Virus record (IMG/VR): IMGVR_UViG_3300030060_001506
Location: 1-28,338 of that record
Direction: 5' to 3' (one strand)
DNA from: a virus
DNA: 28,338 nucleotides
The position numbers and the translations under genes are program-made. A model generated the notes under the pieces. It did no database searches and was not told where the DNA came from. It was given only the letters and a program-made list of their open reading frames with translations. Below, piece by piece: positions 2,152-19,891 of the stretch (position 1 is its first letter; each line of letters opens with the position of its first letter).

Positions 2152-3504
2152 ATGTCCGTTACTCGAACTTTCACAGTAACGGTAGTCTCTACCGGTTCTG
2201 GTAATAAATATTTTATTGATGGTGTACAACAAGCTACCTTAGAATTAGTTGAAGGTGCTACGTTTAGGTTTGATCAGTCTGACAGTTCAAACAGTGGTCA
2301 CCCTTTAAGATTTTCCACAACAAGTGGTGGCTCACATTCTGGAGGTAGTGAGTATACCACAGGTGTTACAACAAACGGGACACCAGGTTCTTCTGGTGCT
2401 TACACACAAATTCAAGTTGCCTCTAGTGCACCAACTTTATATTATTATTGCACTGTTCACTCAGGAATGGGAGGACAAGCAAATACACCTACCACTGATT
2501 TTTGGGGAGCGGGAAACTGGAGTGCTGGTCTTTGGGGAATAAGTGAAGCATTTACATCAGGTTGGGGTGTTGACGCTTGGAATACTGGTGGATCATGGGG
2601 ACAGGCAAATGACGAAGTAGTGCAACTAACTGGTCAAGGTATAACCGCATCTTTAGGAGAAGTTATATCAGGAGCAAACCAAGGTTGGGGTAGAGATGCT
2701 TGGAATGCTGGACCATATGGAGAAAGTTTTAATCCAGTAGTTACATTATCTGGTCAATCAATTACATCTTCAGTTGGCTCACTTACTGCTTTTAACGAAC
2801 AGGGTTGGGGTAGAGATACTTGGAACTTTGAAAGTTGGGGTTTCAGTGGTTTAACAGTAGAGGTAACTGCACCTGATGCAATTGTATCGGACTTAGGTCC
2901 TAACGGTTGGAGTAATGCGTCTTATGGTGAAAATGGTTGGGGAATGTTTACTCTTAATCCTGCAGATGCCGTAGGATTAACAGGTCAACAAATAACTTCA
3001 GCAGTTCCTAGTCAGCTTGATATACCAGAACAGATTCAAGGTCTTTCTATAACTAGTTCAGTTGGATCAATAGTTCCACTTCAACAGGTAGTAGGTTTAT
3101 CTGGTCAATCAATATCTTCTTCAGTTGGTTCTACAACATTTGATTTAACTTCCATAGTAGTACCAACAGGTCAACAAGTAACTTCATCAGTTGGAAGCAC
3201 AATAGAAGGTCTTGTAGAATTTGTGCCAGTAACAGGTGTTGCAGCAACTTTATCTGTAGGATCTTTAGATTTAGGTGAATTTATTGTAGGATTAACTGGT
3301 CAATCAACTACGCTTTCTGTAGGATCTTTAACACCTGCAGATGTTATCGGATTAACGGGACAAGAAATAACGTCCTCTGTAGCAGGATTTGGAACTGCAA
3401 CTGGCTTTGGAATTCAGGCATATTCTGATGTTGACACAGGCTCAAATTCTTCGTATACAAATGTTGCAACGGGATCAAATACAAGTTATACTGACGCTGC
3501 ATAA
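2152..3504 (+). CDS. Virion fibre-like protein with N-terminal cupredoxin-like domain and repeats
   Basis: A 450-residue protein in three parts. Residues 1-112 look like a cupredoxin fold: His50 in SGHPLRF, then YYYCTVHSGMGG supplying Cys100, His103 and Met106, the four-ligand set of type 1 copper proteins with the C-x2-H-x2-M spacing of amicyanin. Residues about 116-270 carry four tryptophan/glycine repeats (GWGRDAWNAGPYG, GWGRDTWNFESWG and relatives). Residues about 156-415 hold some ten degenerate repeats of the type LTGQSITSSVGS, 18-30 residues apart, which suggest a repeated beta scaffold. Context (adaptor before, tail fibre after) indicates a virion component. Copper binding is predicted from residues only. 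The ribosome site is the GGGAGAG just before the ATG. Confidence 0.7.
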   Translation: MSVTRTFTVTVVSTGSGNKYFIDGVQQATLELVEGATFRFDQSDSSNSGHPLRFSTTSGGSHSGGSEYTTGVTTNGTPGSSGAYTQIQVASSAPTLYYYCTVHSGMGGQANTPTTDFWGAGNWSAGLWGISEAFTSGWGVDAWNTGGSWGQANDEVVQLTGQGITASLGEVISGANQGWGRDAWNAGPYGESFNPVVTLSGQSITSSVGSLTAFNEQGWGRDTWNFESWGFSGLTVEVTAPDAIVSDLGPNGWSNASYGENGWGMFTLNPADAVGLTGQQITSAVPSQLDIPEQIQGLSITSSVGSIVPLQQVVGLSGQSISSSVGSTTFDLTSIVVPTGQQVTSSVGSTIEGLVEFVPVTGVAATLSVGSLDLGEFIVGLTGQSTTLSVGSLTPADVIGLTGQEITSSVAGFGTATGFGIQAYSDVDTGSNSSYTNVATGSNTSYTDAA

Positions 3505-3517
3505 TAGGAGATAAAAT

Positions 3518-4750
3518 ATGGCATCAACATATACACCACTCGGTATAGAACTTCAGGCAACTGGTGAAAACGCCGGAACGTGGGGAACTAAAACTAATAC
3601 AAACTTACAAATTTTTGAACAAATTGTTGGTGGATTTACACAACAATCAATAGCAGGTGGCGCACAAACTACAGCATTATCTGTATCTGATGGATCAACT
3701 GGAGCAACTTTATCCCATAGAATGATTGAGTTTACTGGTACAATTTCAGGAAATCAAATTGTAACTATTCCACTAGACGTACAAACTTTTTACTACTTAA
3801 GAAATTCAACATCAGGTTCACACACAGTACAATTTAAATACACATCAGGATCTGGTGATTCGTTTACTTTTGCAGCAGCTGATAAAGGAGACGCTGTTGT
3901 GTTTGCAACTGCAAACGATGGAACTAATCCAGACATTCACACTTTACCAGCTGGTAACGTAACGACTGCTGGAACACAAACTTTAACAAACAAAACGTTA
4001 ACTTCTCCTAAAATAGGAACTTCTATTTTAGACACTAACGGAAACGAAGTAGCTTTAATTACAGCTACAAGTTCAGCAGTTAATGAAGTTACTTTTGTAA
4101 ATGCCGCTACAGGAAACAATCCATCAATTGACGCTTCAGGTGGTGATTCAAATATAGGTATAGCATTAAAAACAAAAGGCACAGGAGTAATTCAAGCAGA
4201 GGACTCAGGCGGAAACGTGTCCGCAGTAAAAATAGCAGGTAAAGAATCTATTTGGGTTCCAGCAGTTGCTATGTATCCAAACACAACAAACGGGTGTGCA
4301 GACATAGCTCAAGTAGAATTATCAAATGGACCTGAAATCAAAACTTTAGATTTTGATAAGGACTCAGATGAAAACGCTCAATTTGCTGTTGCGTTTCCAA
4401 AGTCTTGGAACGAAGGCACAGTAACTTTTCAAGCGTACTTTACAGCAGATTCAACAAACACAGGAACTGTATCTTGGGTGTTAGCGGGTGTTGCTTGCGC
4501 AGACAATGACACTATTAACGCTACTTTTGGAACAGGTGTAGCACCGACAGCAAAGGCACACAGTGGTACAGCAAACGATTTAGATGTTACAGCAGAAAGT
4601 GGAGCAGTTACAATAGCGGGATCTCCTAGTACGGATGAGGAAGTTTACTTCCAAATAACAAGAGATGTGTCAGCAGACTCATTAACTGCAGATGCTAAAC
4701 TATTAGGTATTAAATTATTCTTCACTACAGATGCTGCTAACGATCTATAA
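3518..4750 (+). CDS. Tail fibre / tail spike-like protein
   Basis: A 410-residue protein. The N-terminus (YTPLGIELQATGENAGTWGT, then KTNTNLQIFEQIVGG) is a recurrent anchor block of marine phage fibre proteins. The middle (TAGTQTLTNKTLTSPKI) is a motif typical of phage fibres and tail-collar proteins. The C-terminal half, from about residue 243 (ESIWVPAVAMYP) to the end, looks like a separate beta-rich domain of the sort used for trimerised fibre heads or receptor contact. No sugar-degrading catalytic motif is recognisable, so it is better called a fibre than a depolymerising spike. The ribosome site is AGGAG about nine bases before the ATG. Receptor binding is inferred from family and location. 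Confidence 0.75.
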   Translation: MASTYTPLGIELQATGENAGTWGTKTNTNLQIFEQIVGGFTQQSIAGGAQTTALSVSDGSTGATLSHRMIEFTGTISGNQIVTIPLDVQTFYYLRNSTSGSHTVQFKYTSGSGDSFTFAAADKGDAVVFATANDGTNPDIHTLPAGNVTTAGTQTLTNKTLTSPKIGTSILDTNGNEVALITATSSAVNEVTFVNAATGNNPSIDASGGDSNIGIALKTKGTGVIQAEDSGGNVSAVKIAGKESIWVPAVAMYPNTTNGCADIAQVELSNGPEIKTLDFDKDSDENAQFAVAFPKSWNEGTVTFQAYFTADSTNTGTVSWVLAGVACADNDTINATFGTGVAPTAKAHSGTANDLDVTAESGAVTIAGSPSTDEEVYFQITRDVSADSLTADAKLLGIKLFFTTDAANDL

Positions 4751-4759
4751 GGAGGATAA

Positions 4760-5644
4760 ATGGCAGGATTTGGTTACACAGTTCTAGGTTTTGGCTCTGG
4801 AGGAGCACCAAAAGTAGAATATTCAATGGATTTTTATATCGTTGCTGGAGGCGGCGGAGGCAGCGGGCCTAAAGGTGCTGGCGGAGGCGGCGGCGGTTCA
4901 AGAGCCTTTAGTTCACAATCATTATTTACAGGAGACGTAGCAACAATAACCGTCGGAGCTGGAGGACAACTGGGAGTTCCCGGAGGTCAACCATCAGGTA
5001 AAGGAAGCAATACTTCTATAGCCTCTACAACAACAGGATTTACAACTTTAGATACCACTGGAGGCGGTCAAGGAGGACCCGCTTCAGGTGGAACTGGTGG
5101 CGCAGGTGGGGGTTCTACATTCCCATCAACCAATAACAATGCAGGAAACGAAGGAGGATATGATCCTCCTGAAGGAGCCGATGGCGGCGCAGGTGCCGGC
5201 CCTAGATTTGGCGGTGGCGGCGGAGGCGGTGGTGCCTCTGGAACTAACGGCAGTAATGCTAGTGGTGGCGGTGGCCCTGGCGGTAACGGGACCACAACAA
5301 CTATTACTGGAGCATCTGTTACTTTAGCAGGTGGTGGCGGAGGTGCCACTCAATCAACAGGAACTCACGGTGCTGGTGGTTCTGGTGGTGGAGGCGCTGG
5401 AGGACCCGGTGCTGGAACACCTGGAACAGCAAACACTGGTGGCGGTGGTGGCGCAGGCCAAGGTAATCCAAATAATCCTGGAGGATCAGGAGGCTCTGGA
5501 ATCGTATTTGTAAGAGCACCAACTCTTTCTTTTGATAAAATTACTATTACTGGATCAACAAATACAAAAACATCAACTCCTTCACCTGATGGGTCAGCAA
5601 CATTATTAACTTTCAATGAGTCAGGAACTTTTACGATAGGTTAA
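4760..5644 (+). CDS. Glycine-rich phage tail-tip / adhesin-like protein
   Basis: A 294-residue protein, very glycine-rich from about residue 34 to 252, with many runs of four to seven glycines broken by Ala, Ser, Asn and Pro. It opens with FYIVAGGGGGSG and ends the glycine region with GGSGGSGIVFVRAP, both hallmarks of the glycine-rich phage domain in tail-tip proteins. Polyglycine type II sandwiches in T-even-like gp38 adhesins are the known structural precedent (analogy, not proof). A short non-glycine C-terminus of about 45 residues follows. The ribosome site is very strong (AAGGAGG at 4749-4755). The GGC/GGA repeats make the locus locally GC-rich and open to slippage. Likely displayed at the fibre end and a host-range determinant. 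Confidence 0.75.
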   Translation: MAGFGYTVLGFGSGGAPKVEYSMDFYIVAGGGGGSGPKGAGGGGGGSRAFSSQSLFTGDVATITVGAGGQLGVPGGQPSGKGSNTSIASTTTGFTTLDTTGGGQGGPASGGTGGAGGGSTFPSTNNNAGNEGGYDPPEGADGGAGAGPRFGGGGGGGGASGTNGSNASGGGGPGGNGTTTTITGASVTLAGGGGGATQSTGTHGAGGSGGGGAGGPGAGTPGTANTGGGGGAGQGNPNNPGGSGGSGIVFVRAPTLSFDKITITGSTNTKTSTPSPDGSATLLTFNESGTFTIG

Positions 5645-5646
5645 TC

Positions 5647-6114
5647 ATGGCACATTTTGCAAAATTAGATGAAAATAATATTGTACTTCAAGTAGTAGTT
5701 ATTGGAGACGGTGTTTCAACAAGTGATGGACCTTTAGGAGAAAATGATATGCATCCAGATGGTGAAACTTATACTGCAAATTTGTTAGGTGGTCGTTGGA
5801 AACAAACTTCTTACAATAATAATTTTAGAAAAGAATATGCAGGAATAGGATCTTATTATGATGAAGAAAAAGATATATTTATAAGACCTCAACCTTTTCC
5901 TTCTTGGTCACTAGATTCAAACAGTGACTGGCAACCCCCAGTAGCACGACCTGAAGGAGAACATACTAAATATACAAATTCTGAAGGTGTAGAAGAACCT
6001 TATGCTGAAATTTATTGGAGTGAAGAAAGTGGAACATGGCTTGCAGAAACACATGACACTCCTGCTACTAAGTACGCTTGGAATTCTGATACATCTACTT
6101 ATACAGCTTTATAA
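5647..6114 (+). CDS. Conserved marine phage virion-associated protein
   Basis: A 155-residue protein. It starts MAHFAKLDENNIVLQVVVIG, continues with GGRWKQTSYNNNFRKEYAGIGSYYD split over residues 50-73, and has IRPQPFPSWSLDSNSDWQPP in its middle. This arrangement recurs in cyanophage and other marine phage genomes, usually near tail fibre genes. Function is not established; fibre chaperone, fibre-tip partner or small virion protein are all possible. It is the last gene before the AT-rich oxygenase cassette, and the 38 bases after its stop contain no obvious terminator hairpin. Rich in Trp, Tyr and Pro, with no membrane segment or catalytic motif. Confidence 0.65.
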   Translation: MAHFAKLDENNIVLQVVVIGDGVSTSDGPLGENDMHPDGETYTANLLGGRWKQTSYNNNFRKEYAGIGSYYDEEKDIFIRPQPFPSWSLDSNSDWQPPVARPEGEHTKYTNSEGVEEPYAEIYWSEESGTWLAETHDTPATKYAWNSDTSTYTAL

Positions 6115-6152
6115 AGATAAAAAAATAGTATATAAGTTTTTAAAAAAGAAAT

Positions 6153-6743
6153 ATGAAATTAAAATATACATATTGGTATTTTAAATCTGTTTTAACAGAT
6201 AAGTTTTGTAAAAAGATAATTGATTTAGCAAAGAAAGAACAAAAATCAGTGGCTAAGGTAGGAGTTGGTACAACTGATAAAAAAACTAGAGACTCTCTTG
6301 TCTTATTTTTAAATGATCCCATAATATATGAAACCCTAGGTCCTTATATACATACAGCCAATAAAAACGCTGGATGGAATTTTCAATGGGAGTCAACCGA
6401 AGCAGCTCAATATACTGAGTACAACAAAAAACAACATTACAGATGGCATCAAGATGCTTGGGATCAAGCTTATACAAACGTAGAAGAACCCTCTACTTAC
6501 GGAAAGATTAGAAAAATATCAGTTAGTTGTTCATTGAATGACTCAAAAAAATACAAAGGCGGTAAACTTCAATTTGATTTATCCACGCCAATAAAAAAAG
6601 ATAACATTGTAACTTGTGAAGAAATTTTACCAAAGGGATCTATTGTTATATTTCCGTCTTTTATTTGGCACAGAGTAACACCTGTTACTCAAGGGACTAG
6701 ACAATCTTTAGTTTTATGGAATTTAGGAAATCCTTATGTTTAA
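6153..6743 (+). CDS. 2-oxoglutarate/Fe(II)-dependent oxygenase, PKHD-type
   Basis: A 196-residue protein with the double-stranded beta-helix ligand set: His99 and Asp101 in HYRWHQD, distal His173 in FPSFIWHRV, and Arg183 in TRQSLVLWN, ten residues later, to hold 2-oxoglutarate. The order and spacing fit the prolyl-hydroxylase-like PKHD group. Such enzymes hydroxylate proteins or small molecules using Fe(II), O2 and 2-oxoglutarate; the substrate here is unknown. The whole domain fits the length with no targeting signal, so it should act in the host cytoplasm. First gene of the AT-rich cassette; its stop lies inside the next gene (8-base overlap). The ribosome site is weak and A-rich. Confidence 0.85.
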   Translation: MKLKYTYWYFKSVLTDKFCKKIIDLAKKEQKSVAKVGVGTTDKKTRDSLVLFLNDPIIYETLGPYIHTANKNAGWNFQWESTEAAQYTEYNKKQHYRWHQDAWDQAYTNVEEPSTYGKIRKISVSCSLNDSKKYKGGKLQFDLSTPIKKDNIVTCEEILPKGSIVIFPSFIWHRVTPVTQGTRQSLVLWNLGNPYV

Positions 6744-7335
6744 AAATTATAAAGTTTTAAAGGGAATAATAAATAAACAAGTCTGCGATATTGCCGTAAG
6801 ATATTGTGAATTAACAAAAACCAAAGCTAAATATTTATTAGACAATAATTTAATTCCTTTTGATTCCACAACTTATGGAATTTTTGGTGATGGTCAAATT
6901 CCTAAAAAAGATGTTTTTGCTTATTATGGAAGTGATTTTTTTGATTCTTTATTAGTGTTTTTAAAAAAAGATATGGAAAGAGAAACTAATAAAAAACTAA
7001 AATGTATGTATTCTTATTTTAGGATTTATACTAAAGGCAGCGTATTAAGTTCTCATAAAGATAGAAAGGCTTGTGAATTTTCTACAACTTTAAATTTAGG
7101 TGGAGATCCCTGGCCTATTTATTTTTTAATTGACGACAAAGAAGTTGAAATTACGCTAAAACCTGGAGACATGATAATTTATAAAGGCGCTGATCTAAAA
7201 CACTGGAGAAATAAATTTAAAGGTAAAAAATGTTATCAAGTTTTTTTACATTACACTGATGTTAAAAGTAAAACTTCCCTAAACGACGGAAGAGCCGTTT
7301 TAGGCATATCAACAAAAATGAGGAACCATGGATAG
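6736..7335 (+). CDS. Putative 2-oxoglutarate/Fe(II) oxygenase
   Basis: A 199-residue protein of different sequence from its neighbour but the same fold pattern. His107 and Asp109 lie in SSHKDRKACEFSTTLNLGG, then comes LKPGDMIIYKGADLKHW with candidate distal ligand His156, and QVFLHYTD closes the core. The canonical 2-oxoglutarate-binding Arg about ten residues after the distal His is not obvious; Arg158, Lys165 or Gln168 are alternatives. I recall similar proteins, with the HW-R and QVFLHY signatures, from marine phages as oxygenase-like hypotheticals. AGGA at 6725-6728 gives a ribosome site inside the upstream gene. Activity likely but less certain than for the first gene. Substrate unknown. 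Confidence 0.7.
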   Translation: MFKNYKVLKGIINKQVCDIAVRYCELTKTKAKYLLDNNLIPFDSTTYGIFGDGQIPKKDVFAYYGSDFFDSLLVFLKKDMERETNKKLKCMYSYFRIYTKGSVLSSHKDRKACEFSTTLNLGGDPWPIYFLIDDKEVEITLKPGDMIIYKGADLKHWRNKFKGKKCYQVFLHYTDVKSKTSLNDGRAVLGISTKMRNHG

Positions 7336-7915
7336 TATAAAAGTTATAGATTTATTTAGATACCCACTAGGAGTTTCTAATCTTAAACAAGATATTAAAG
7401 AACTAATAAAATTTACTAAAGAAGTAAAAAGAAATGAAAAGAATGTGTCTAAAACAAATAAAAGAGGTTTTCAAAGTCCGTCCAATCTTGATAAATATAA
7501 TAAACCTGTGTTTAATAATTTATACTCAAACATATTTAAATTAGCTGGGAAATTTTCTAGTATCTATAATTTACAAAAACCAATTAGGTATGGAAATGCC
7601 TGGATAAATATAAACCCTCAATATAGTTATAACACTGCGCACACTAGTCCAAGCACAGCTATTAGTGCTGTGTTTTATATACAAGTTCCTAAGAATAGTG
7701 GACAAATTATTTTTAGAAGACCAGAAAAATTAATAGGCTATTTAGAAGATAAAGATATTCATACATATAATAATTTTAATTCCTCTCTACAAGTTTTTAC
7801 ACCAAAACCAAATCAACTGTTTTTATTTCCTAGTTGGATAGAGTATGAGGTTAGTCAAAATTTATCTAAACAAGATAGAATATCATTAGCTATAAATTTT
7901 GAATGCACACGATAA
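7328..7915 (+). CDS. Oxygenase-like protein of the TIGR02466/PF13759 type, ligands probably lost
   Basis: A 195-residue protein whose C-terminal half follows the putative 2OG-Fe(II) oxygenase family pattern: GNAWININPQYSYNTAH, then AVFYIQVPKNSGQIIFRRP, PNQLFLFPSWIEYEV and DRISLAINF. In that family the first metal pair is H-x-H or H-x-D and the third ligand is the His of FPSW-x-x-H. Here the first pair reads His105-Thr-Ser107 and the third position is Tyr173, so two of three ligands seem replaced while Arg184 remains. The N-terminal ninety residues are Lys-rich and helical-looking. It overlaps both neighbours in the cassette. A pseudoenzyme or partner for one of the intact oxygenases is a reasonable inference. 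Confidence 0.65.
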   Translation: MDSIKVIDLFRYPLGVSNLKQDIKELIKFTKEVKRNEKNVSKTNKRGFQSPSNLDKYNKPVFNNLYSNIFKLAGKFSSIYNLQKPIRYGNAWININPQYSYNTAHTSPSTAISAVFYIQVPKNSGQIIFRRPEKLIGYLEDKDIHTYNNFNSSLQVFTPKPNQLFLFPSWIEYEVSQNLSKQDRISLAINFECTR

Positions 7916-8235
7916 TAAAAAGGTTTATTAAAAATTTACAATCTTTTGAATACCCAGATTCAAAAACGTCTTGGAATGTAGCAGGTATTTTAAAAAATCA
8001 AAACGCCTATTATAAGTTTGATGTTAAGGACATGCATAAACTATCAAATGGGGAACTTGTTAGATCAGGTAAAACTGATAGTAAAGCAGATAAAATTGTA
8101 ATTGAATTTAAAAACAAATGGGTTATCATAGACACGAAAGAATTATATAATTATATTAAGATAAATAAGACTAAAAAAGTTTATCTAGAAACATTATTGG
8201 ATAAATTAGAATGGAACATACTTATAGATAAATGA
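7903..8235 (+). CDS. Hypothetical protein in the oxygenase cassette
   Basis: A 110-residue, lysine-rich basic protein that I do not recognise with confidence. Visible features are SWNVAGILKNQNAYYKFDV, the central SGKTDSKADKIVIEF followed by KNKWVIIDTKELYNYI, and a Lys/Leu-rich C-terminus. The alternation of beta-like (KIVIEF, KWVIID) and helical segments suggests a small alpha/beta domain. No catalytic motif or membrane segment is clear. Its start lies 13 bases inside the upstream gene without a good Shine-Dalgarno, and its stop overlaps the next start as ATGA, so it is probably made by coupled translation. Position between two oxygenase-like genes suggests a shared role, but nothing in the sequence shows what it is. 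Confidence 0.55.
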   Translation: MHTIIKRFIKNLQSFEYPDSKTSWNVAGILKNQNAYYKFDVKDMHKLSNGELVRSGKTDSKADKIVIEFKNKWVIIDTKELYNYIKINKTKKVYLETLLDKLEWNILIDK

Positions 8236-8714
8236 AAGTTATTGATAATTTTTTACCAAAAAAAGAGTTTTTAAATCTTCAAAATGCATTCATGTCTCAA
8301 GAGATGCCTTGGTACTTTCAATCTGCAATAAACCAATATTCTTCGAAAGATGAACTAAACTGTTATTTTACACATGGTCTATATTTTCAACATCAAGGCT
8401 ATAGCAATTATTTTAATTATGTAAAACCGATTCTTGAGTTTATCAACCCAAAAGCATTAATTAGAATTAAAGCAAACTTGTACATGAAGACTGAAAAAGT
8501 AGAGGTACATAAACCACACGAAGATTATTATTTTAAACATCAAGGAGCTATATTCTACGTAAATACAAATAATGGAAAAACGATTTTACATGACGGAACT
8601 AAAATTGACTCTATCGAAAACAGGCTTTTATTGTTTGACTCAAGTAAAAAACATAGTAGTAGTTCTACTACAGACTCTAAATGTAGAATAAATATCAATT
8701 TTAACTATTTTTAA
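8232..8714 (+). CDS. 2-oxoglutarate/Fe(II) oxygenase, prolyl-4-hydroxylase-like
   Basis: A 160-residue protein of a compact oxygenase type common in cyanophages. It starts MKVIDNFLPKKEFLNLQ, has the first metal pair His96 and Asp98 in HKPHEDYYF, then GAIFYVNTNNGKTILHDGTK, distal His141 in SSKKHSS and Arg152 in CRININFNYF as the likely 2-oxoglutarate ligand. The pattern IFYVNTNNGKT resembles the strand pair of P4H-like enzymes. Substrate unknown. It is the last cassette gene and is joined to the previous one by an ATGA overlap. After its stop, 51 non-coding bases lead to the nozzle-like gene. Confidence 0.8.
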   Translation: MKVIDNFLPKKEFLNLQNAFMSQEMPWYFQSAINQYSSKDELNCYFTHGLYFQHQGYSNYFNYVKPILEFINPKALIRIKANLYMKTEKVEVHKPHEDYYFKHQGAIFYVNTNNGKTILHDGTKIDSIENRLLLFDSSKKHSSSSTTDSKCRININFNYF

Positions 8715-8726
8715 GAGACTTATTTA

Positions 8727-8742
8727 GGCTATGTTTTTAGCC
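8727..8742. other. Small hairpin at the cassette/virion-gene boundary
   Basis: GGCTA at 8727-8731 pairs perfectly with TAGCC at 8738-8742 around a six-base loop, and TTT/AAA outside it can extend the stem after one A-A mismatch. No T-tract follows on the plus strand, so it is not a standard intrinsic terminator. It may be a weak transcription or RNA-processing signal. Confidence 0.3.
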
Positions 8743-8751
8743 AAAAATTAG

Positions 8752-8757
8752 TATAAT
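8752..8757 (+). promoter_or_regulatory. Possible -10 element (TATAAT) before the nozzle gene
   Basis: A perfect TATAAT lies nine bases before the ATG at 8766. No convincing -35 hexamer is found 15-18 bases upstream. Used as a promoter it would give an almost leaderless transcript. In DNA this AT-rich a chance match is quite possible, but the site coincides with the end of the oxygenase cassette, where a fresh start of virion transcription would make sense. Confidence 0.25.
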
Positions 8758-8765
8758 GGTATATT

Positions 8766-10922
8766 ATGGCATTACAAAAAGTACAGTTCTTACCAGGCTT
8801 CAATAAACAACTTACCGAAACTCAAGCTGAGGGACAATGGGTAGATGGTGATAACGTAAGATTTAGATATGGCTCACCAGAAAAAATAGGTGGCTGGAAT
8901 CAACTAGGAACTGATAAACTTACTGGTGCAGCGAGGGCCATGCACCATATCGTAAATAGTAACGGAGTAAAATATTCTATTATAGGAACTAATAGAATAT
9001 TGTATGCATACTCAGGAGGTGTGTTTTATGACATACACCCGATTCGAGAAACCACTACACTCACTAACGCTTTTACTACGACTAACGGATCCGCTGTGGT
9101 TACAATAACTTTTTCTACAGGACATGGTTTAAACCCTGGAGATATAGTTTTATTAGATAATTTTACTACAATTACAAACTCAAACTTTAGCTCTTCTGAT
9201 TTTGACGATAAAAAATTTATGGTGACTAGCACACCAACTAATGTCACAATTACAATAACGATGGCATCAAATGAATCTGGATCAGGTGCTACAACATCTG
9301 GAGGTATTAGAGTTCAATCTTATTATTCTGTTGGACCTGCAGAACAGTTACCAGGTTTTGGTTGGGGATTAGGTTCTTGGAGTGGTGAGGCGGCAAACCC
9401 ACAAACATCAACTTTAAACGGAGCGCTGTTAGATGACACTGCCGGAACAGGTGGATCAGGAACAAGCATAACACTAGCAAGCACAACAAACTTTCCAACA
9501 ACAGGAACAAACTTTGTAAAAGTAGGAACGGAAGAAATATCTTACACAGGAGTTTCTGGTAATGACTTAACAGGAATTACAAGAGCAGTTAGAGGAACAA
9601 CAAGAGCTGCACACTCAGACGGAGCAACCGTAACTAATACGTCTGACTTCGTAGCGTGGGGCGAGGCGGCTTCAGGTGACTTAGTTATTGATCCAGGTCT
9701 TTGGTCTATAGATAACTTTGGTAATAAAATTATTGCTTTAATTCACAACAAACAAGTTTTTGAATGGAATGCAGATTTATCTAATGCAAACGCAACAAGA
9801 GCTACAATTATTTCTGGCGCACCAACGGCATCTAGAGATATGATTGTATCTACACCGGACAGACACTTAGTATTTTTTGGAACAGAAACAACAATAGGAA
9901 CACCAAGCACACAAGATCAAATGTTTATTAGATTCTCTAATCAAGAGGATATTAACACTTACACACCTACAGCTACCAACACAGCAGGTACACAAAGACT
10001 TGCAGATGGTTCTAGAATCATAGGGGCAGTTAGAGGCCGTGATGCAATCTATGTTTGGACGGATACTGCTTTATTCACGCAAAGATTTATTGGTCCACCT
10101 TTTACTTTTGGTTTTGCGCAAGTAGGAACTAACTGTGGACTAATAGGACAGAACGCTGCGGTAGAGGTAGATGGTGCTGCATACTGGATGTCAGAGAATG
10201 GTTTCTTTAAATATGCTGGTGCTCTACAATCACTACCATGTTTAGTAGAAGATTTTGTTTATGATGATTTAAATACAACAGCCAATCAACTTATAAATGC
10301 TGGATTAAATAATTTGTTTGGAGAAATTAATTGGTTTTATTCTTCATCAGGGTCAACAGTTGTAGATAGAGTTGTGACTTACAATTATTTTGAATCCACA
10401 CCACAAAGACCAATATGGACAACAGGAACATTAGATAGAACAACATGGCAAGACTCTGCAGTATTTGGAAAACCCCATGCTACAGATTATGACGCTAGTT
10501 CAAATAATTCTTATGATGTTGTTGGAAACACTGATGGTTGCACCATATATTATGAACACGAAACTGGCACGGATCAGGTTACATCTACAGCAACAACAGC
10601 CATAACCTCAAACATACAGTCTGGGGACTTTGATATTTCTCAAGGTGGTGATGGTGAGTTCTTTGCAAAGATTAGAAGATTTATACCTGACTTTTTATCA
10701 CAAACAGGTAACACACAAATTACATTAAACTTAAGAAACTTTCCAAATAACACCGAGGCAAGTTCAGCTCTTGGTCCTTTTACAATCACCTCATCAACAG
10801 AAAAAGTTGATACGAGAGCTAGGGCAAGAGCAGTATCTTTAAAAGTTGCAAATACAGCTGCAGCACAGAGTTGGAAACTTGGTGGATTTAGGTTAGACAT
10901 ACAACCAGATGGAAGAAGATAA
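8766..10922 (+). CDS. Tail nozzle / DNA-stabilisation-like protein (P22 gp10 or T7 gp12 role)
   Basis: A 718-residue protein. The N-terminus (LPGFNKQLTETQAEGQWVDG, DNVRFRYGSPEKIGGW, then AMHHIVNSNGVKYSIIGTN) is the characteristic beta-propeller opening of phage stabilisation/nozzle proteins that close the short tail. Two inserted beta modules follow: residues about 100-185 with TGHGLNPGDIVLL, and about 214-300 with VKVGTEEISYTGVSGNDLTG and TRAVRGTTRAAH. The propeller resumes with GLWSIDNFGNKIIALIHNKQ, and the C-terminus holds RFIPDFLSQTG and SWKLGGFRLDIQPDGRR. It is clearly richer in G+C than the preceding cassette. Its stop overlaps the next start (TAATG). Nozzle role is a family-level inference. 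Confidence 0.75.
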   Translation: MALQKVQFLPGFNKQLTETQAEGQWVDGDNVRFRYGSPEKIGGWNQLGTDKLTGAARAMHHIVNSNGVKYSIIGTNRILYAYSGGVFYDIHPIRETTTLTNAFTTTNGSAVVTITFSTGHGLNPGDIVLLDNFTTITNSNFSSSDFDDKKFMVTSTPTNVTITITMASNESGSGATTSGGIRVQSYYSVGPAEQLPGFGWGLGSWSGEAANPQTSTLNGALLDDTAGTGGSGTSITLASTTNFPTTGTNFVKVGTEEISYTGVSGNDLTGITRAVRGTTRAAHSDGATVTNTSDFVAWGEAASGDLVIDPGLWSIDNFGNKIIALIHNKQVFEWNADLSNANATRATIISGAPTASRDMIVSTPDRHLVFFGTETTIGTPSTQDQMFIRFSNQEDINTYTPTATNTAGTQRLADGSRIIGAVRGRDAIYVWTDTALFTQRFIGPPFTFGFAQVGTNCGLIGQNAAVEVDGAAYWMSENGFFKYAGALQSLPCLVEDFVYDDLNTTANQLINAGLNNLFGEINWFYSSSGSTVVDRVVTYNYFESTPQRPIWTTGTLDRTTWQDSAVFGKPHATDYDASSNNSYDVVGNTDGCTIYYEHETGTDQVTSTATTAITSNIQSGDFDISQGGDGEFFAKIRRFIPDFLSQTGNTQITLNLRNFPNNTEASSALGPFTITSSTEKVDTRARARAVSLKVANTAAAQSWKLGGFRLDIQPDGRR

Positions 10923-13995: not shown

Positions 13996-14847
13996 ATGAG
14001 CAGAACATTAAAAAGACCAATGTTTAGAAAAGGCGGAGAAGTCATGGAAGGTATTATGACTGGTATAAAGCCTAGAAAAATGTTTTCTCTTGGAACAGAA
14101 GATCAAACCATAGTAGATAACGTAAGACGTAGAATAAGTTTAATTGATGCTGTGGCTGGTGGAGGAAGTCCATTGTCAGATCCTTTTACACAATTTTTAT
14201 TAACAGCTGGCCCAGATTTAGTTGCAGGAAAAGCAGCAGGCGGAACTAAACTACAAGAAATACTTGGTGGTATTAAACCAGGTTTAGATAGAGCAGTAAA
14301 AACTCAACAGTTAAAAGACGCACAAAACAGAAAATTAGCTACACAATTAATTGCTAAATCAAAAATAGGCAGTGCTGAACAAGCATGGAGAGACTATGGA
14401 AAAGACTCAGGTTTAACTAAAGAAGAGTTTATAAGAGAGTTTGCTCAAAAAGAATTATTTAAAAAGAAAACAAACCCAGAAGATAGAAGAGTTCAATCAG
14501 ATCGAGATATATCACAAGATCTTGGTAAATATAAAGATTTCTTAAGAAACCCTAAATACAATCCATTGCAAAAAAATCGTATTACAAACGTAATAAACCA
14601 ATTGAATAAAAATCCAAAATTAGAAGCAGAAGTAGATATAAGTAATCCTTTTATTTCAAGAGATGACTATGAAATTGGTCAAAATGTAAAAGTAAAAACT
14701 CCAGAGGGAACTATAGAGGAGCGTAGAGTTTTTGTGCCTAATGATAAAGATGATTTTCAACCAAGCCTAAAATACTTTTTAGTAGATGCAAATGCATTTT
14801 TCTTTTACGATGCACAAAATAACAGGTTGATTGAAGCACCGAATTAG
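13996..14847 (+). CDS. Putative internal virion protein (283 aa)
   Basis: A 283-residue protein, one base after the previous stop. The N-terminus (MSRTLKRPMFRKGGEVMEGI, then MTGIKPRKMF) is a recognisable start shared by marine phage proteins at this site and echoes the GG-x-x-x-G style of the 507-residue protein. Middle residues about 90-160 are helical and charged, with AEQAWRDYGKDSGLTKEEF. The C-terminal part (IGQNVKVKTPEGTIEERRVF, then DANAFFFYDAQNNRLIEAPN) looks like a small beta domain. Function unknown; co-transcription with the 1400-residue protein supports an internal virion or assembly role. The next gene has a strong AAAGGAG site soon after this stop. Confidence 0.6.
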   Translation: MSRTLKRPMFRKGGEVMEGIMTGIKPRKMFSLGTEDQTIVDNVRRRISLIDAVAGGGSPLSDPFTQFLLTAGPDLVAGKAAGGTKLQEILGGIKPGLDRAVKTQQLKDAQNRKLATQLIAKSKIGSAEQAWRDYGKDSGLTKEEFIREFAQKELFKKKTNPEDRRVQSDRDISQDLGKYKDFLRNPKYNPLQKNRITNVINQLNKNPKLEAEVDISNPFISRDDYEIGQNVKVKTPEGTIEERRVFVPNDKDDFQPSLKYFLVDANAFFFYDAQNNRLIEAPN

Positions 14848-14859
14848 AAAGGAGTTTAA

Positions 14860-17800
14860 ATGTCTGATACATTCAAACTACCGGACGGCTCTATTATAAT
14901 AGAAGACACAGAAGAAGTCGTTGACGAAGTAATCAAAGATAAAGACCTACAATTACAAGAAACAACAGAAGTAGAAGAACCTGTTGGTATAGACGTTTTA
15001 AAAGAAAAAGGCATCATCTCACCATCAAGTATTACAGGATCTCCTACTGAGGAGATGGTTAGAGGGATTAGTAAAATTGTAGATAAAGTGCAAGGTAAAG
15101 AAATAGAAGAAGATGTTTCTCTTGTAGAATCTTTAGTTGGAGCTGGTGTGAGCAGCGCTATAAAAATACCAAAGGGTTTAGTTACATTTGGAACTTTACT
15201 ATTTGATATTTTTCAAGAAGAAGGCATACCTTATGATGAAACATTAACAGGTAGATTAACTGAAGCTTTTGAACAAACAACACTGGGTAAAATAGAACAA
15301 GCATCATCAGAAGTTGCAGCAGAAACAGCGGCAGGTAAAATTACAGAAGCTATTGGTCAGTTATATGGTGCAGGTAAAATAGCACAAAAGACAGCTATAC
15401 CTGTCATAGAAAAAACATCTCGAAAAGTTAGACAATTAGTAAGCGCCATCAAAGGTGGTAGATATGTTAAGACTACAAACAATGTAAACGCAGCAAGAGC
15501 TGTTAAAAAAGCAAATGATTTAAATAAAATAACAGGCAAAGATAAATTTATAGCCATTGCTGTTGGTGGAGGAGTTGGTGGTGGTTTTATAGTATCTGAT
15601 GTAGAGAAGATTGGTACGTTTGGTGATTGGGATTTTTTAGATTTTTTACCAACAGGATTAGATAGAAATCAACGAGAACAAGGTGCTGAAGATGCACAAA
15701 GACAATTATTAAATAGATTAAAGTTTGGTGCAGAGTTAGGATTTCCTATTATACCTGCTGTAGTAGGTACAATTAAAACTGGTAAGCTTATTACGCAGTT
15801 TGGTAAAGATCTTGCATATAGTGATAGTATGCTAGAGAGATGGGTAGACAGGTTTGTTGGTCGACCGTTTAGATCTAGAAGTAATAAGACTCAAGAATTA
15901 TTTGATGGTATACAAAAATTAGAAGGTAAAAAATCTGCTATAAAAGTATTAGCCAAAGACGCTGCTGCAGATTTTGATGATACAATAAGAGCTATATCAA
16001 AAGAAACGAGTGGCGCGGCGCAAGCATTAAAAGATCCAGATGCCATGTCAAAACTTATATCTGAGTTTATGTTTAAATCTACGGATGATGTTGTAAAAGG
16101 TAAGTCAATAGCTTTTCCTGGTTTTTCTAACAAATCTTTAAAAAGATTTAGAGAATCCATGAGTGAATTAGGTGTATCTAAAGGTTCTGTAAATAAGATT
16201 ATTAAAGACTCTGCAGCTTTTAGAAATACCACAGCAGGATTAAAATCATTAATTAGTGCAAGTAAAAATGTTGTAACAGGCACAGAAAAATTAAATAAAA
16301 TATTAAATGAAAGAATAAAAAATCAACTCACTGTAGATTACAAAATTATAGATGACAACAGAGGTTTATTTAATGGTTATAGACCAACAGCTGAAAGTAT
16401 AAAAGAAGTTGCACAGATCTTACAAAAATATGCAAGAGCAAACGGTAAGAGTTTAGATGATGCTACTGCTAATAAATTAGTAACTGATGTAACTAAAAAT
16501 GCATTTAAAGATAAAACAACAGGTGCTTTAGTATTTGATATTGGAGAACAAAGCGCATTAGCAGATAAAGCTGTGCAAAGAATTAACATGGGTAAATATA
16601 TTACTACAGGTAAATTTAAACCTGATGGTAAAGGTGGCCTTATACAAAAAGAAGCTGATCTTACAGCTTTTAAAAAATTATTTGGTGAATACAGAAATGC
16701 ACAAAAAGGTATTTATGCTGTGGCATCTGAGTTAGGTGAGACTATTGCAAGAGATAAATTTTATCAAACACTATTAGATGACAGTAACAGAATAGCTGCA
16801 GCGATAAAACAAGGTAATCCTGACGTTATCAGAGGTCAAATAGGTAGACCTATATTTTTTAAAAATTACAACGATGCTGTTGTAAATTTACCTAATCAAG
16901 ACATAGCAAAAGTACCATTAAGTTTAAAAACAGCTTTACCAGAAACAATATATAAAAGTCCGTTAGATGGATACTTTACAACAATTCCATATGGTGAAGC
17001 CATTAGAGTTGGTGATGCTGTAGTTGGTAGTGCACTTACTAGAAGTGCAATCTATAGAGCTTTGATGTTAATACCAAAAGGTTTATCACAAGCTGCAAAA
17101 ACAATTTTAGGTCCTTTTACACACGCTAGAAACTTTTTCTCTTCTATGTTTACAACAATACATCGAGGAAACATTCTAATACCACCTGAAAAAATAGTAG
17201 AGTTTTTAAACAGATCTAGAAAGTCTGTGCAGCCACAGTTGTTGTATAGAATGACAGGTAATCCTAAATATAGAAACGCACCCGCAGATCAAGCACTATA
17301 TAGATTCTTATTAGAAGAAGGTGTTACCAACCAGAACATTGTAGCTAGAGAACTTGAAGGTATTTTTTCTGATATCACACAATTAAGAACAGCTAACATG
17401 ACAACGGATAAGTGGTTTAATAAAATATTAAACACAGGCACACGAAAATTTAAAAGACTGTATGATGTTGCACAAGATTTATATACAGCAGAGGATGACC
17501 TATTTAGAGTGTATAATTTTTTAGCAGAGTTTTATAAATTAGATAATGCATTTAACGTTGCAATTAAAAAAGGTATTAGAGACATAAATGGTAAAGTAGT
17601 GACACAAGCAACTAAACCATCAGAACTTGAACTAATGAAAGAAGCAGCACAGATTGTAAGAGAAACTGTGCCAAACTACGCGTATGTTTCTGATTTTGTA
17701 AAAGGTGTTAGACGATCTCCACTTGGAAGTTTTGCTGCCTTTCCAGCAGAAATATATAGAACAGGCGTAAACACAACTGTTAGAGCACTAAAAGAAATTA

Positions 17801-19062
17801 AAGATCCTGTTAGAAAACAAATTGGTTATAACAGTTTAGTTGGACAAGGATTTACGTATGCTGTAATACCAGTTATAGCAACAGAAGCATTTAGAACTTT
17901 ATATGGTATCACTAGAGATCAAGTTAATGCTCTTAGAGAAGTATTACCAACATGGTCAGAAGACAACACTATTTTACCTGTGTATGAAGATGGTAAATAT
18001 AAATATATAGATTTTAGTCATGGATTTTTTTATGACACAATGATTGAACCTGTGCAAACTACTTTATCAACAGTGCAAAGAAACCCAGATCAACCTTTGG
18101 TGCCACAGCTTTTAGATGGTTTTGTAAAATCTACAGGTAAAGTTTTTCAACCTTTTATTCAAGAATCGATTTGGATAGGAACTGTATTAGACCTATTTGC
18201 TAGAAAAGGAAGAACGAAAGAGGGCAGACAAATATGGAATGAAAGAGATGAACCAGGTGACAAACTTTCATCAGCAATAGAATATGCAGCTAAAGAATTA
18301 TCTCCAGGATCTAGAGAACAGCTAATAAGATTATACAAAGCGTTAACTGATCAAACTATAAAAGGAACAAAATATGAAATACCTGATGAGCTTATGGGAT
18401 TATTTGGATTTAGAAAAGTGCCAATTAATCTTGAAAAAACGCTTAAAGTTAGAATACAACAATTTAACACAGACACACGTAACGAACGTAGATTAATTTT
18501 CGCTGACACAAGAACAGGAGATCCTGTGAAAGATGATAATATAATCATTAGACAATTTGTCAAAGCAAATAAACAAAGGTATGAAACATACAGTAAAATG
18601 AGAAGATTATATGATTCTGTAAAAGTTTTAGGTATGAGAGATGAAAAAATAGCAGAAGAGTTTAGCGATAGAAATGCTATAAGACTTTATGGTTTTATAG
18701 AAAATAATAAATTTGATCCTTTTGGTGTAAGCACAGACGTAATAGCAGCATATGCAAAAGAATCAGATGAAAAAAATATACCCAATCCTTTAAACAAGAA
18801 AGTATTAAAAAAACTAAAGAAAATGAGAAAAGATATGTCTAAATTAAAATTAAACCAAGAATTTAATATTGATGTAGAGAAGTATCTATTACCAGAAGCA
18901 GATACTAGCATGGTGCCACCATTACCAGAGCAACCACAACCAAATCCAGCGATAGTTCAAAGTCCACCACCTATGACAACACAAGGGTTGACACCAACAG
19001 AACAAGCTTTATTATCGGAAGAGGAGCGAATGATAGCGCTTAGAAACAGAGGATTAGTATAA
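14860..19062 (+). CDS. Giant internal virion / DNA-ejection protein (1400 aa)
   Basis: The longest gene here. The size is close to T7 gp16, and its position at the end of the virion module fits a channel-forming ejection protein. The first 45 residues are very acidic. Hydrophobic, glycine-rich segments occur at about 230-247 (FIAIAVGGGVGGGFIVSD) and about 291-305, and a further one lies near residues 990-1010 (FTYAVIPVIATEAF), all able to enter a membrane. The rest is mainly charged helix. The C-terminus is proline/glutamine-rich (PPLPEQPQPNPAIVQSPPPM). I see no lysozyme-like or transglycosylase catalytic motif, unlike T7 gp16. The ribosome site is AAAGGAG, eight bases before the ATG. Confident as a gene, moderate on role. 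Confidence 0.65.
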   Translation: MSDTFKLPDGSIIIEDTEEVVDEVIKDKDLQLQETTEVEEPVGIDVLKEKGIISPSSITGSPTEEMVRGISKIVDKVQGKEIEEDVSLVESLVGAGVSSAIKIPKGLVTFGTLLFDIFQEEGIPYDETLTGRLTEAFEQTTLGKIEQASSEVAAETAAGKITEAIGQLYGAGKIAQKTAIPVIEKTSRKVRQLVSAIKGGRYVKTTNNVNAARAVKKANDLNKITGKDKFIAIAVGGGVGGGFIVSDVEKIGTFGDWDFLDFLPTGLDRNQREQGAEDAQRQLLNRLKFGAELGFPIIPAVVGTIKTGKLITQFGKDLAYSDSMLERWVDRFVGRPFRSRSNKTQELFDGIQKLEGKKSAIKVLAKDAAADFDDTIRAISKETSGAAQALKDPDAMSKLISEFMFKSTDDVVKGKSIAFPGFSNKSLKRFRESMSELGVSKGSVNKIIKDSAAFRNTTAGLKSLISASKNVVTGTEKLNKILNERIKNQLTVDYKIIDDNRGLFNGYRPTAESIKEVAQILQKYARANGKSLDDATANKLVTDVTKNAFKDKTTGALVFDIGEQSALADKAVQRINMGKYITTGKFKPDGKGGLIQKEADLTAFKKLFGEYRNAQKGIYAVASELGETIARDKFYQTLLDDSNRIAAAIKQGNPDVIRGQIGRPIFFKNYNDAVVNLPNQDIAKVPLSLKTALPETIYKSPLDGYFTTIPYGEAIRVGDAVVGSALTRSAIYRALMLIPKGLSQAAKTILGPFTHARNFFSSMFTTIHRGNILIPPEKIVEFLNRSRKSVQPQLLYRMTGNPKYRNAPADQALYRFLLEEGVTNQNIVARELEGIFSDITQLRTANMTTDKWFNKILNTGTRKFKRLYDVAQDLYTAEDDLFRVYNFLAEFYKLDNAFNVAIKKGIRDINGKVVTQATKPSELELMKEAAQIVRETVPNYAYVSDFVKGVRRSPLGSFAAFPAEIYRTGVNTTVRALKEIKDPVRKQIGYNSLVGQGFTYAVIPVIATEAFRTLYGITRDQVNALREVLPTWSEDNTILPVYEDGKYKYIDFSHGFFYDTMIEPVQTTLSTVQRNPDQPLVPQLLDGFVKSTGKVFQPFIQESIWIGTVLDLFARKGRTKEGRQIWNERDEPGDKLSSAIEYAAKELSPGSREQLIRLYKALTDQTIKGTKYEIPDELMGLFGFRKVPINLEKTLKVRIQQFNTDTRNERRLIFADTRTGDPVKDDNIIIRQFVKANKQRYETYSKMRRLYDSVKVLGMRDEKIAEEFSDRNAIRLYGFIENNKFDPFGVSTDVIAAYAKESDEKNIPNPLNKKVLKKLKKMRKDMSKLKLNQEFNIDVEKYLLPEADTSMVPPLPEQPQPNPAIVQSPPPMTTQGLTPTEQALLSEEERMIALRNRGLV

Positions 19063-19682: not shown

Positions 19683-19891
19683 TGCCAAACGGAAAACCAC
19701 CAAAGACAACCGGCGAACATTTAGTATCTCTCTACGGATACGTGCAAGGATTTAAAAGACAGATAGATCATTTACATCAAGACGTAGGAAAGTTAGAAAA
19801 GAAAACAGACACAGTTATTTATTGGATTATTGGTGGTGCGTTTACAACTATACTAACACTTGTTGGTTTATTTAATTTATTTATTAATTAG
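19682..19891 (+). CDS. XhlA-like small membrane protein, possible holin
   Basis: A 69-residue protein with an N-terminal soluble part (TTGEHLVSLYGYVQGFKRQI), a short coiled-coil (DHLHQDVGKLEKKTDTV) and one C-terminal transmembrane helix (IYWIIGGAFTTILTLVGLFN). This layout is that of XhlA-type haemolysin/holin-associated proteins, known to help in phage lysis. No endolysin gene lies in the window. It is the last gene of the virion operon and ends tail-to-tail with the minus-strand helicase gene, overlapping by four bases. Holin function is a guess from topology; a small virion or ejection membrane protein is also possible. Confidence 0.5.
   Translation: MPNGKPPKTTGEHLVSLYGYVQGFKRQIDHLHQDVGKLEKKTDTVIYWIIGGAFTTILTLVGLFNLFIN

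Follow-up and report, generated by a model that had tools for sequence, protein, structure and literature searches.

Oxygenases of the kind arrayed here rank with the most frequent "auxiliary metabolic genes" of ocean viruses, and the explanations published for them are nitrogen signalling, iron/haem supply and DNA repair. An auxiliary metabolic role was proposed for the 2OG-Fe(II) oxygenases of cyanophages (Sullivan 2010; PMC3037559) and again in a seasonal survey (PMC11561400). In HTVC023P-type pelagiphages, the co-location of a 2OG-Fe(II) oxygenase with a "ferrochelatase" was described in terms of partner auxiliary metabolic genes (Wittmers 2022; PMC9599517). In that account the partner was read as a haem ferrochelatase, and the oxygenases were "frequently nearby, although not adjacent". 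A word search of the text found no halogenase, carbamoyltransferase, sulfotransferase or tail fiber. The HTVC027P transcriptome names one 2OG gene, gp73, and the accessible part of that source gives no temporal class for it.

The locus described here lies in a window of 28,338 nucleotides, the whole stretch of DNA that was analyzed, which comes from a marine phage, probably with SAR11 bacteria as host. It belongs to the same lineage as the Wittmers 2022 system and shares its families phrog_61, phrog_81 and phrog_2954. In the present locus, however, the presumed ferrochelatase belongs to the oxygenases, the genes directly adjoin one another, and the slot that they occupy shows a link with adhesin type and with further tailoring enzymes.

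Layout of the cassette

A cassette of five genes spans positions 6153-8714 of the window. All five are on the + strand, and every start in the ORF calls is ATG. The cassette genes and their neighbors are as follows.

2152-3504, + strand: w2152, tail fibre-like protein (phrog_30742/phrog_693)
3518-4750, + strand: w3518, tail-region protein (phrog_31104), upstream of the Gly-rich gene
4760-5644, + strand: Gly, very glycine-rich tail protein (PF21722 Gly_rich_2), candidate substrate
5647-6114, + strand: h155, small phrog_7759 protein that adjoins the Gly-rich tail protein in many phages
6153-6743, + strand: O1, 196 aa, PF13640/phrog_61 2OG-Fe(II) oxygenase, possibly PKHD (PiuC)-like
6736-7335, + strand: O2, 199 aa, phrog_2954 2OG-Fe(II) oxygenase, mislabelled "ferrochelatase"
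7328-7915, + strand: O3, 195 aa, PF13759/phrog_81 oxygenase-fold member, likely pseudo-oxygenase
7903-8235, + strand: U, 110 aa, partner protein
8232-8714, + strand: O4, 160 aa, phrog_274 2OG-Fe(II) oxygenase, mislabelled "DNA endonuclease V"
8766-10922, + strand: vir, 718-aa structural protein of the virion (phrog_3287), which bounds the slot downstream

Consecutive genes overlap by 8 (O1/O2), 8 (O2/O3), 13 (O3/U) and 4 bases (U/O4), bearing out an earlier description of four oxygenase-superfamily genes and a 110-residue protein packed with overlaps of 4-13 bases. Between the cassette and its flanking genes lie 38 noncoding bases upstream (6115-6152) and 51 downstream (8715-8765), and its GC content falls to 27-32%, against 37-53% in the surrounding genes. 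Promoter-like sites in the region were no more numerous than expected by chance, and when the region was compared with phages at the DNA level, fragments alone were recovered.

Oxygenase-superfamily proteins and their small partner

In the profile searches proposed in the earlier note, matches above the Pfam cut-off were obtained for O1 (PF13640, 52.6 bits) and O3 (PF13759, 68.6 bits); O4 fell below the PF13640 cut-off (E = 0.012), and O2 had no relevant Pfam match. The same note had three of the proteins retaining an H-x-D motif and a distal His, and this proved correct. The triads are H99-x-D101...H173 in O1 (plus R183), H107-x-D109...H156 in O2 and H96-x-D98...H141 in O4 (plus R152), each of them 99-100% conserved among 140-153 relatives per protein. 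O1 additionally matched the PKHD/PiuC hydroxylases weakly (E = 0.005-0.011), with ~60-70 residues aligned. Its motif resembles that of the PKHD-type hydroxylase PiuC, a likeness from which the substrate cannot be inferred.

O2 fits phrog_2954 at 2e-40, a family labelled "ferrochelatase". It was the sole oxygenase modelled, and its predicted structure (pLDDT 89) has the double-stranded β-helix anticipated by the earlier note over the whole chain. The model matches P4H, PHD2, PiuC and SnoN at Z ~16, the small-molecule epimerase SnoN tying with P4H as the top match, and matches a bacterial P4H solved with EF-Tu (4iw3) at Z 15.4. The predicted fold is thus like that of the prolyl hydroxylases (Pseudomonas putida P4H with EF-Tu, PHD2), with an identity of 10-16%. 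A profile comparison with O1 was not significant, and O2 is placed in the oxygenase superfamily because of its fold; on the basis of the model it is confidently predicted to be a 2OG-Fe(II) oxygenase of P4H/PHD2 type. Because the 199-residue chain models confidently as a prolyl hydroxylase-type β-helix throughout, rather than as a chelatase, the "ferrochelatase" label is wrong; no PF00762 match was found at E values up to 1.

O4 fits phrog_274 at 6e-48, a family labelled "DNA endonuclease V". Profile-profile comparison gave 96-98% probability to related oxygenase families of this set over nearly the full length, and O4 is placed in the oxygenase superfamily because of this homology. The endonuclease label is contradicted by that homology and by the invariant HxD...H...R motif, and no match to pyrimidine-dimer glycosylase (PF03013) was found at E values up to 1.

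O3 reads H105-x-S107...Y173, and its relatives have His at both changed positions. Two of three ligands have therefore been lost (HxH...H to HxS...Y), while a close relative retains all of them; the O3 homologue of L009 reads HxH...H. From these substitutions O3 is likely to be a pseudoenzyme with the oxygenase fold rather than an active oxygenase.

U occurs only where oxygenases are present and had no match in named phages. Its weak Pfam and PHROG matches (baseplate wedge, translation repressor) were not repeated across U members and were therefore dropped. The U model (pLDDT 92.6) shows weak similarity to PD-(D/E)XK folds (Hjc, RecU, NhoI, I-Ssp6803I), with a best Z of 8.5 (3.1 Å over 97 residues), a level that a common arrangement can reach. 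All matches at Z of at least 5 were nucleases or resolvases of this type, with Foldseek E values of 0.05 or worse. Residues D40, K64, D77 and E80 are invariant in 90 members. The likely catalytic Asp and Lys of the nucleases are mostly replaced: by our own mapping, made without residue-level superposition, position 25 is Asn in 73 of the 90 and Asp in 7, and position 42 is Arg in 75 and Lys in 7.

Slot turnover and adhesin type

HTVC023P-type pelagiphages have a hypervariable slot, bordered by w3518, Gly and h155 on one side and by vir on the other, and the cassette is one version of its content. The slot position was found again in phage contigs within Pelagibacteraceae single-cell and other assemblies. 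Divergent oxygenases packed among virion genes, as first noted for the window alone, recur in the same tail-tip slot across the lineage. The number of oxygenases in the slot ranges from 0 to 10 among relatives, and their order is shuffled. HTVC025P has no array. The identical five-gene set is kept only in two near relatives (L010/L011), and in L008/L009, although the virion protein is 98% identical, there are already two extra oxygenases. The suggestion of a fixed multi-subunit unit is therefore not upheld: the genes are not scattered singly in the lineage, but the five-gene set is not conserved either. The only frequent core is O1+O2, present in 30 of 38 arrays. Other residents of the slot are Trp halogenases (27 ORFs), carbamoyltransferases (11) and sulfotransferases (9), together with TylF methyltransferase, Asp/Arg hydroxylase, JmjC_2 and radical SAM-SPASM proteins.

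Slot content depends on adhesin type. Loci with a LamG-like fibre module never contained oxygenases (0/20), compared with 53/64 other loci. On the vir tree, where starred branches require at least 14 label changes, trait pairs ran ~8 against and 0 with an association of oxygenases and LamG-like module (p ~0.008). This exclusivity arises in part because both fill one slot. Of the 29 oxygenase arrays whose upstream sequence is long enough to judge, 20 are accompanied by a tail protein very rich in glycine (a Gly content of 35% or more across 60 residues), compared with 1 of 31 oxygenase-free loci; 9 of the 29 lack such a neighbor, and when phylogeny was considered the link came to 4.4 pairs to 0 (p ~0.125). 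At least eight phages, and likewise the locus L055, carry the Gly-rich + h155 pair or h155 alone with no oxygenase nearby, showing that the adhesin does not need oxygenases.

Gly-rich segments beside oxygenases (172) contain more Pro than those without (20), 6.4 versus 4.1% (p = 6e-4), and their Tyr and Cys contents also differ. With relatedness and lineage uncontrolled, these differences are no more than a hint.

The same neighborhood is found in unrelated phages: HTVC033P, the T4-like HTVC008M, Mosig, S-SM1, S-RSM4, S-MS29 and S-CAM8, and DSL-LC04 has it with a single oxygenase. T4-like cyano- and pelagiphages (S-SM1, S-RSM4, S-SSM5, P-RSM4, HTVC008M, Mosig) likewise carry runs of 5 to 9 small oxygenases that include O1-, O2- and O4-type genes, most adjoining h155 and a Gly-rich tail protein. 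They differ in phage type, in gene order and members, and in that no U was found. Arrays of 3 to 10 are common, contrary to the premise that these oxygenases are common as single genes in marine phages. Outside the lineage, a Gly-rich or h155 neighbor was seen for 6/12 arrays of at least three versus 1/15 in the comparison, a weak difference (p = 0.02). O4-type genes also adjoin replication genes in P-SSM7 and P-SSM2 and therefore also live outside the tail-tip slot.

Candidate targets of the enzymes

A slot filled with shuffled tailoring sets, and with none when the tail protein is of a different type, suggests decoration of the part of the virus that contacts the host. We therefore favor, at a probability of about 0.45, a hypervariable tail-tip tailoring locus of which the cassette is one filling and whose enzymes modify virion tail adhesins. 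The adjacent Gly-rich tail protein, one of several targets named in the earlier note, is plausible in that arrays lie beside such proteins in unrelated phages too, and the structural matches of O2 include protein hydroxylases, one of them the prolyl hydroxylase solved with EF-Tu. Weighing against this reading are the Gly-rich/h155 loci that lack oxygenases, the 9 arrays with no very Gly-rich neighbor, the slight Gly link once phylogeny is considered, the O4-type genes beside replication genes, and the tie of SnoN with P4H. The enzymes would probably be made together with the virion proteins, late in infection. Using Fe(II), O2 and 2-oxoglutarate, they would hydroxylate side chains of neighboring adhesins, the Gly-rich protein (4760-5644) and its partner h155 being the first candidate substrates. 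In relatives, hydroxyl or aromatic groups may be changed further by the halogenase, carbamoyl-, sulfo- or methyltransferases of the same slot. O1 and O2 would supply the core activities and O4 an optional one; O3 may be a copy that lost its activity recently and now either serves in binding or decays, and U would be an accessory protein with a binding role. Such chemistry would alter the host-contact surface, possibly with an effect on adsorption, and would turn over quickly together with adhesin type.

Alternatively, the enzymes might modify components of the infected host (its surface polysaccharide or lipid, receptors in the outer membrane, EF-Tu or ribosomal proteins), for example to block superinfection or redirect translation; the tail-gene site would then only give strong late expression. 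The similarity of O2 to the P4H solved with EF-Tu fits this reading, as do the weak PiuC/PKHD matches of O1, the action of sulfo-, carbamoyl- and methyltransferases on glycans and small molecules too in known pathways, and a P-SSM2 carbamoyltransferase that adjoins sugar enzymes. We consider it unlikely, since it leaves unexplained why arrays track adhesin type and recur beside Gly-rich/h155 pairs in unrelated phages. Somewhat less likely still is a recombination hotspot that collects morons of unrelated function with no joint role. Hypervariable content and order, low GC and the loss of the O3 active site are as such a hotspot would have them, but its residents are strongly skewed to small-group-transfer and oxidation enzymes, O1+O2 recurs in 30 of 38 arrays, U tracks oxygenases, and arrays avoid LamG-like loci.

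Auxiliary metabolism, in which 2-oxoglutarate drawdown or iron/haem management with the "ferrochelatase" partner would serve the nitrogen and iron economy of host and phage, has been published for cyanophages, HTVC023P-type phages and a seasonal survey (PMC3037559, PMC9599517, PMC11561400). It appears improbable here: the partner is predicted to be an oxygenase itself, bulk 2OG use requires neither several divergent families per slot nor halogenases and sulfotransferases alongside, and members of the lineage that bear a LamG-like fibre lack oxygenases in this slot. Modification or repair of DNA or RNA bases, a role suggested for 2OG oxygenases encoded near uvsX in cyanophages, is very improbable. 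A P-SSM7 2OG gene does adjoin uvsX, U resembles the Hjc/RecU/NhoI folds, and the name "DNA endonuclease V" implies such a role; against this, AlkB/TET-type and endonuclease V families are absent from the Pfam matches, hydroxylases of proteins and small molecules are the nearest to O2, the likely PD-(D/E)XK residues are mostly missing from U, and the array lies among tail genes rather than replication genes.

Within the adhesin-tailoring reading, a more specific and still doubtful proposal is that natural-product-type enzymes (hydroxylases, halogenases, carbamoyl-, sulfo- and methyltransferases, radical SAM enzymes) form a swappable set with which these marine phages diversify their own Gly-rich adhesins post-translationally, the set being exchanged together with the adhesin. 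Such diversification would be akin to the tailoring of ribosomal peptides. With two family names wrong and a slot that depends on adhesin type, the question posed by these oxygenases becomes one of the chemistry of the virion rather than of the metabolism of the host. Should virion proteins prove to be modified, phages would have a novel means of diversifying their receptor-binding surfaces.

Cassette layout and lineage

The five ORFs that the earlier note placed in one cassette among the virion genes were borne out as first described, with successive overlaps of 8, 8, 13, and 4 bases:

6153-6743, O1, 2OG-Fe(II) oxygenase superfamily
6736-7335, O2, same superfamily
7328-7915, O3, same superfamily
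7903-8235, U, 110-aa partner protein
8232-8714, O4, same superfamily as O1-O3

The cassette starts 38 bases past the small protein gene h155 and ends 51 bases short of vir, which encodes a 718-aa virion structural protein. Its GC content is 27-32% as against 37-53% in the surroundings. Pfam cut-offs were passed by O1 (PF13640) and O3 (PF13759) and were not reached by O2 or O4, which matched phrog_2954 (2e-40) and phrog_274 (6e-48), respectively.

The source record is a viral contig of 29,486 bases. Over its length, the 718-aa protein shares 42-49% identity with the counterparts in HTVC023P and 023Pt_psg01, and we therefore call the lineage HTVC023P-type. We infer a SAR11 host; the same gene neighborhood occurs on a 62-kb contig from a Pelagibacteraceae single cell. 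Contigs of this phage type are also binned within Maricaulis, Flavobacteriaceae, and Verrucomicrobia assemblies (L406-L418), probably through phage contamination of MAGs. No PHROG match at E 0.01 was found for a 1400-aa ORF past the virion genes (14860-19062) or for a 283-aa ORF (13996-14847). A helicase (phrog_62; 19888-21312, minus strand) is the sole large minus strand gene.

Identity of O2, O3, O4, and U

PHROGs and many GenBank records name the O2 family "ferrochelatase" and the O4 family "DNA endonuclease V." Both labels are wrong. The O2 triad His-107, Asp-109, and His-156 is invariant in 153 relatives. An AlphaFold2 model from 59 sequences (pLDDT 89.4) best matched the solved structures of SnoN, prolyl hydroxylases (P4H and PHD2), and PiuC, with Z-scores of 15.0-16.5 and root mean square deviations of 2.2-3.6 over 149-175 residues. 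This hydroxylase-like fold, the invariant triad, and the lack of a PF00762 match exclude a ferrochelatase. In O4, His-96, Asp-98, His-141, and Arg-152 are 97-100% conserved (148 relatives), and profile comparison aligned nearly all of O4 to four further oxygenase groups with 96-98% probability, excluding endonuclease V. The ferrochelatase name underlies a proposed partner-AMG role in haem/iron metabolism (PMC9599517) and the interpretation of a seasonal enrichment of phrog_61 and phrog_2954 (PMC11561400); the enrichment stands, and the chelatase reading falls.

The O3 family ligands, H105-x-H107...H173, are 90-100% conserved. O3 in the window has H-x-S...Y at these positions and its near relative L010 has H-x-N...Y, L011 being identical there; L009 (74% identical) retains H-x-H...H. 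The reading frame is intact, and dN/dS point estimates against L011 are 0.28 for O3, 0.28 for O1, and 0.26 for O2. Judged by its ligand residues, O3 is probably dead, with either a remaining binding role or a recent loss of ligands.

The U model (pLDDT 92.6) bears a weak resemblance to the PD-(D/E)XK folds of Hjc, RecU, NhoI, and I-Ssp6803I (best Z-score 8.5); where, by our mapping, the catalytic Asp and Lys would lie, Asn and Arg predominate. With low confidence, we take U to be a binding protein. In an independent scan for U, an oxygenase directly adjoined it in 67 of 78 new loci and lay at most three genes away in 73, usually with vir downstream.

A slot that depends on tail-gene type

Loci around vir were collected irrespective of oxygenase content and reduced to 84 distinct loci with at least 2 kb upstream. 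The slot before vir turns over: the number of oxygenases in it ranges from 0 to 10, their order is shuffled, and L008/L009 carry two more than the window despite a 98% identical vir. O1 and O2 co-occur in 30 of 38 arrays. U was present in 11 of 53 oxygenase-bearing and 0 of 31 oxygenase-free loci (p = 0.006, a statistic that ignores relatedness).

Slot content depends on the type of tail gene. In 20 loci the slot is taken up by a LamG-like fibre module, which we assigned by reading its sequence rather than by domain search. These 20 have no oxygenases, which occur in 53 of the 64 others. The vir tree has at least 14 label changes across starred branches, and its trait pairs are 0 with and about 8 against (p about 0.008), an exclusivity partly built in since module and oxygenases take up the same slot. 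Of 29 arrays whose upstream sequence was long enough, 20 have a very Gly-rich tail protein, as against 1 of 31 oxygenase-free loci; allowing for relatedness (4.4 pairs to 0, p = 0.125), this link is consistent, not proven. Nine arrays adjoin tail proteins of other kinds.

Arrays recur beside h155/Gly-rich tail proteins in unrelated phages. Among 39 named phage records with h155, the gene nearly always adjoins a Gly-rich protein in those examined; screening of S-SSM5 and P-RSM4 found h155 and not the Gly-rich protein. Oxygenases, mostly in arrays, lie beside h155 in HTVC033P, HTVC008M, S-SM1, S-RSM4, S-MS29, S-CAM8, S-SSM5, P-RSM4, DSL-LC04, HTVC023P, and 023Pt_psg01. They are absent there from HTVC025P, Melnitz, Bellamy, CRP-207, CRP-143, phiPsal1, ct2KA10, and Greip, whose stretch ends with its record so that a neighbor could be missed; the tail proteins therefore do not require the enzymes. 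Gly-rich segments beside oxygenases are richer in Pro (6.4% versus 4.1% in segments lacking such neighbors) and poorer in Tyr, by a statistic that ignores relatedness. In the window, h155 (5647-6114) has the top dN/dS among compared genes (0.49 against L011, 0.40 against L009), which fits a fast-evolving tail-tip protein.

ORFs between oxygenases clustered as Trp halogenase (27 ORFs), carbamoyltransferase (11), and sulfotransferase (9); others encode TylF-like and other methyltransferases, a radical SAM-SPASM protein, and further oxygenase types (DUF6445, a weak 2OG match; JmjC_2; and Asp/Arg hydroxylase). Their chemistries are those of tailoring enzymes. The order carbamoyltransferase-O1-O2-h155 is common to S-MS29, S-CAM8, S-SSM5, and P-RSM4. 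Slots of relatives L263, L315, L308, L321, and L232 hold methyltransferases, a radical SAM-SPASM enzyme, and a small ATPase whose weak APS-kinase match might, questionably, indicate PAPS supply for sulfotransferases. In the SAR11 phage Mosig, genes annotated pcyA and haem oxygenase (L005 9525-10208 and 8972-9538) lie directly past the array, although pelagibacters are not known to make phycobilins.

Possible role of the arrays

Our leading, still tentative reading (probability roughly 45%) is that the oxygenases would be made together with virion proteins and would hydroxylate them, the substrate being adhesins. Action on host targets is unlikely, and accretion of the genes as morons somewhat more so. 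A metabolic AMG role appears less probable again, and nucleic acid is the most doubtful target. Earlier proposals for such phage oxygenases were 2OG/NtcA signalling and DNA repair (PMC3037559).

In the literature collection that we searched, no paper tied these oxygenase arrays to adhesins. Oxygenases were already known from marine phages, and their co-location with the mislabelled ferrochelatase had likewise been reported for the HTVC023P-type lineage. As far as we have checked, the corrected O2 and O4 identities, the adhesin-dependent slot with its co-resident tailoring enzymes, the probable pseudo-oxygenase O3, and the U family lack an earlier description.
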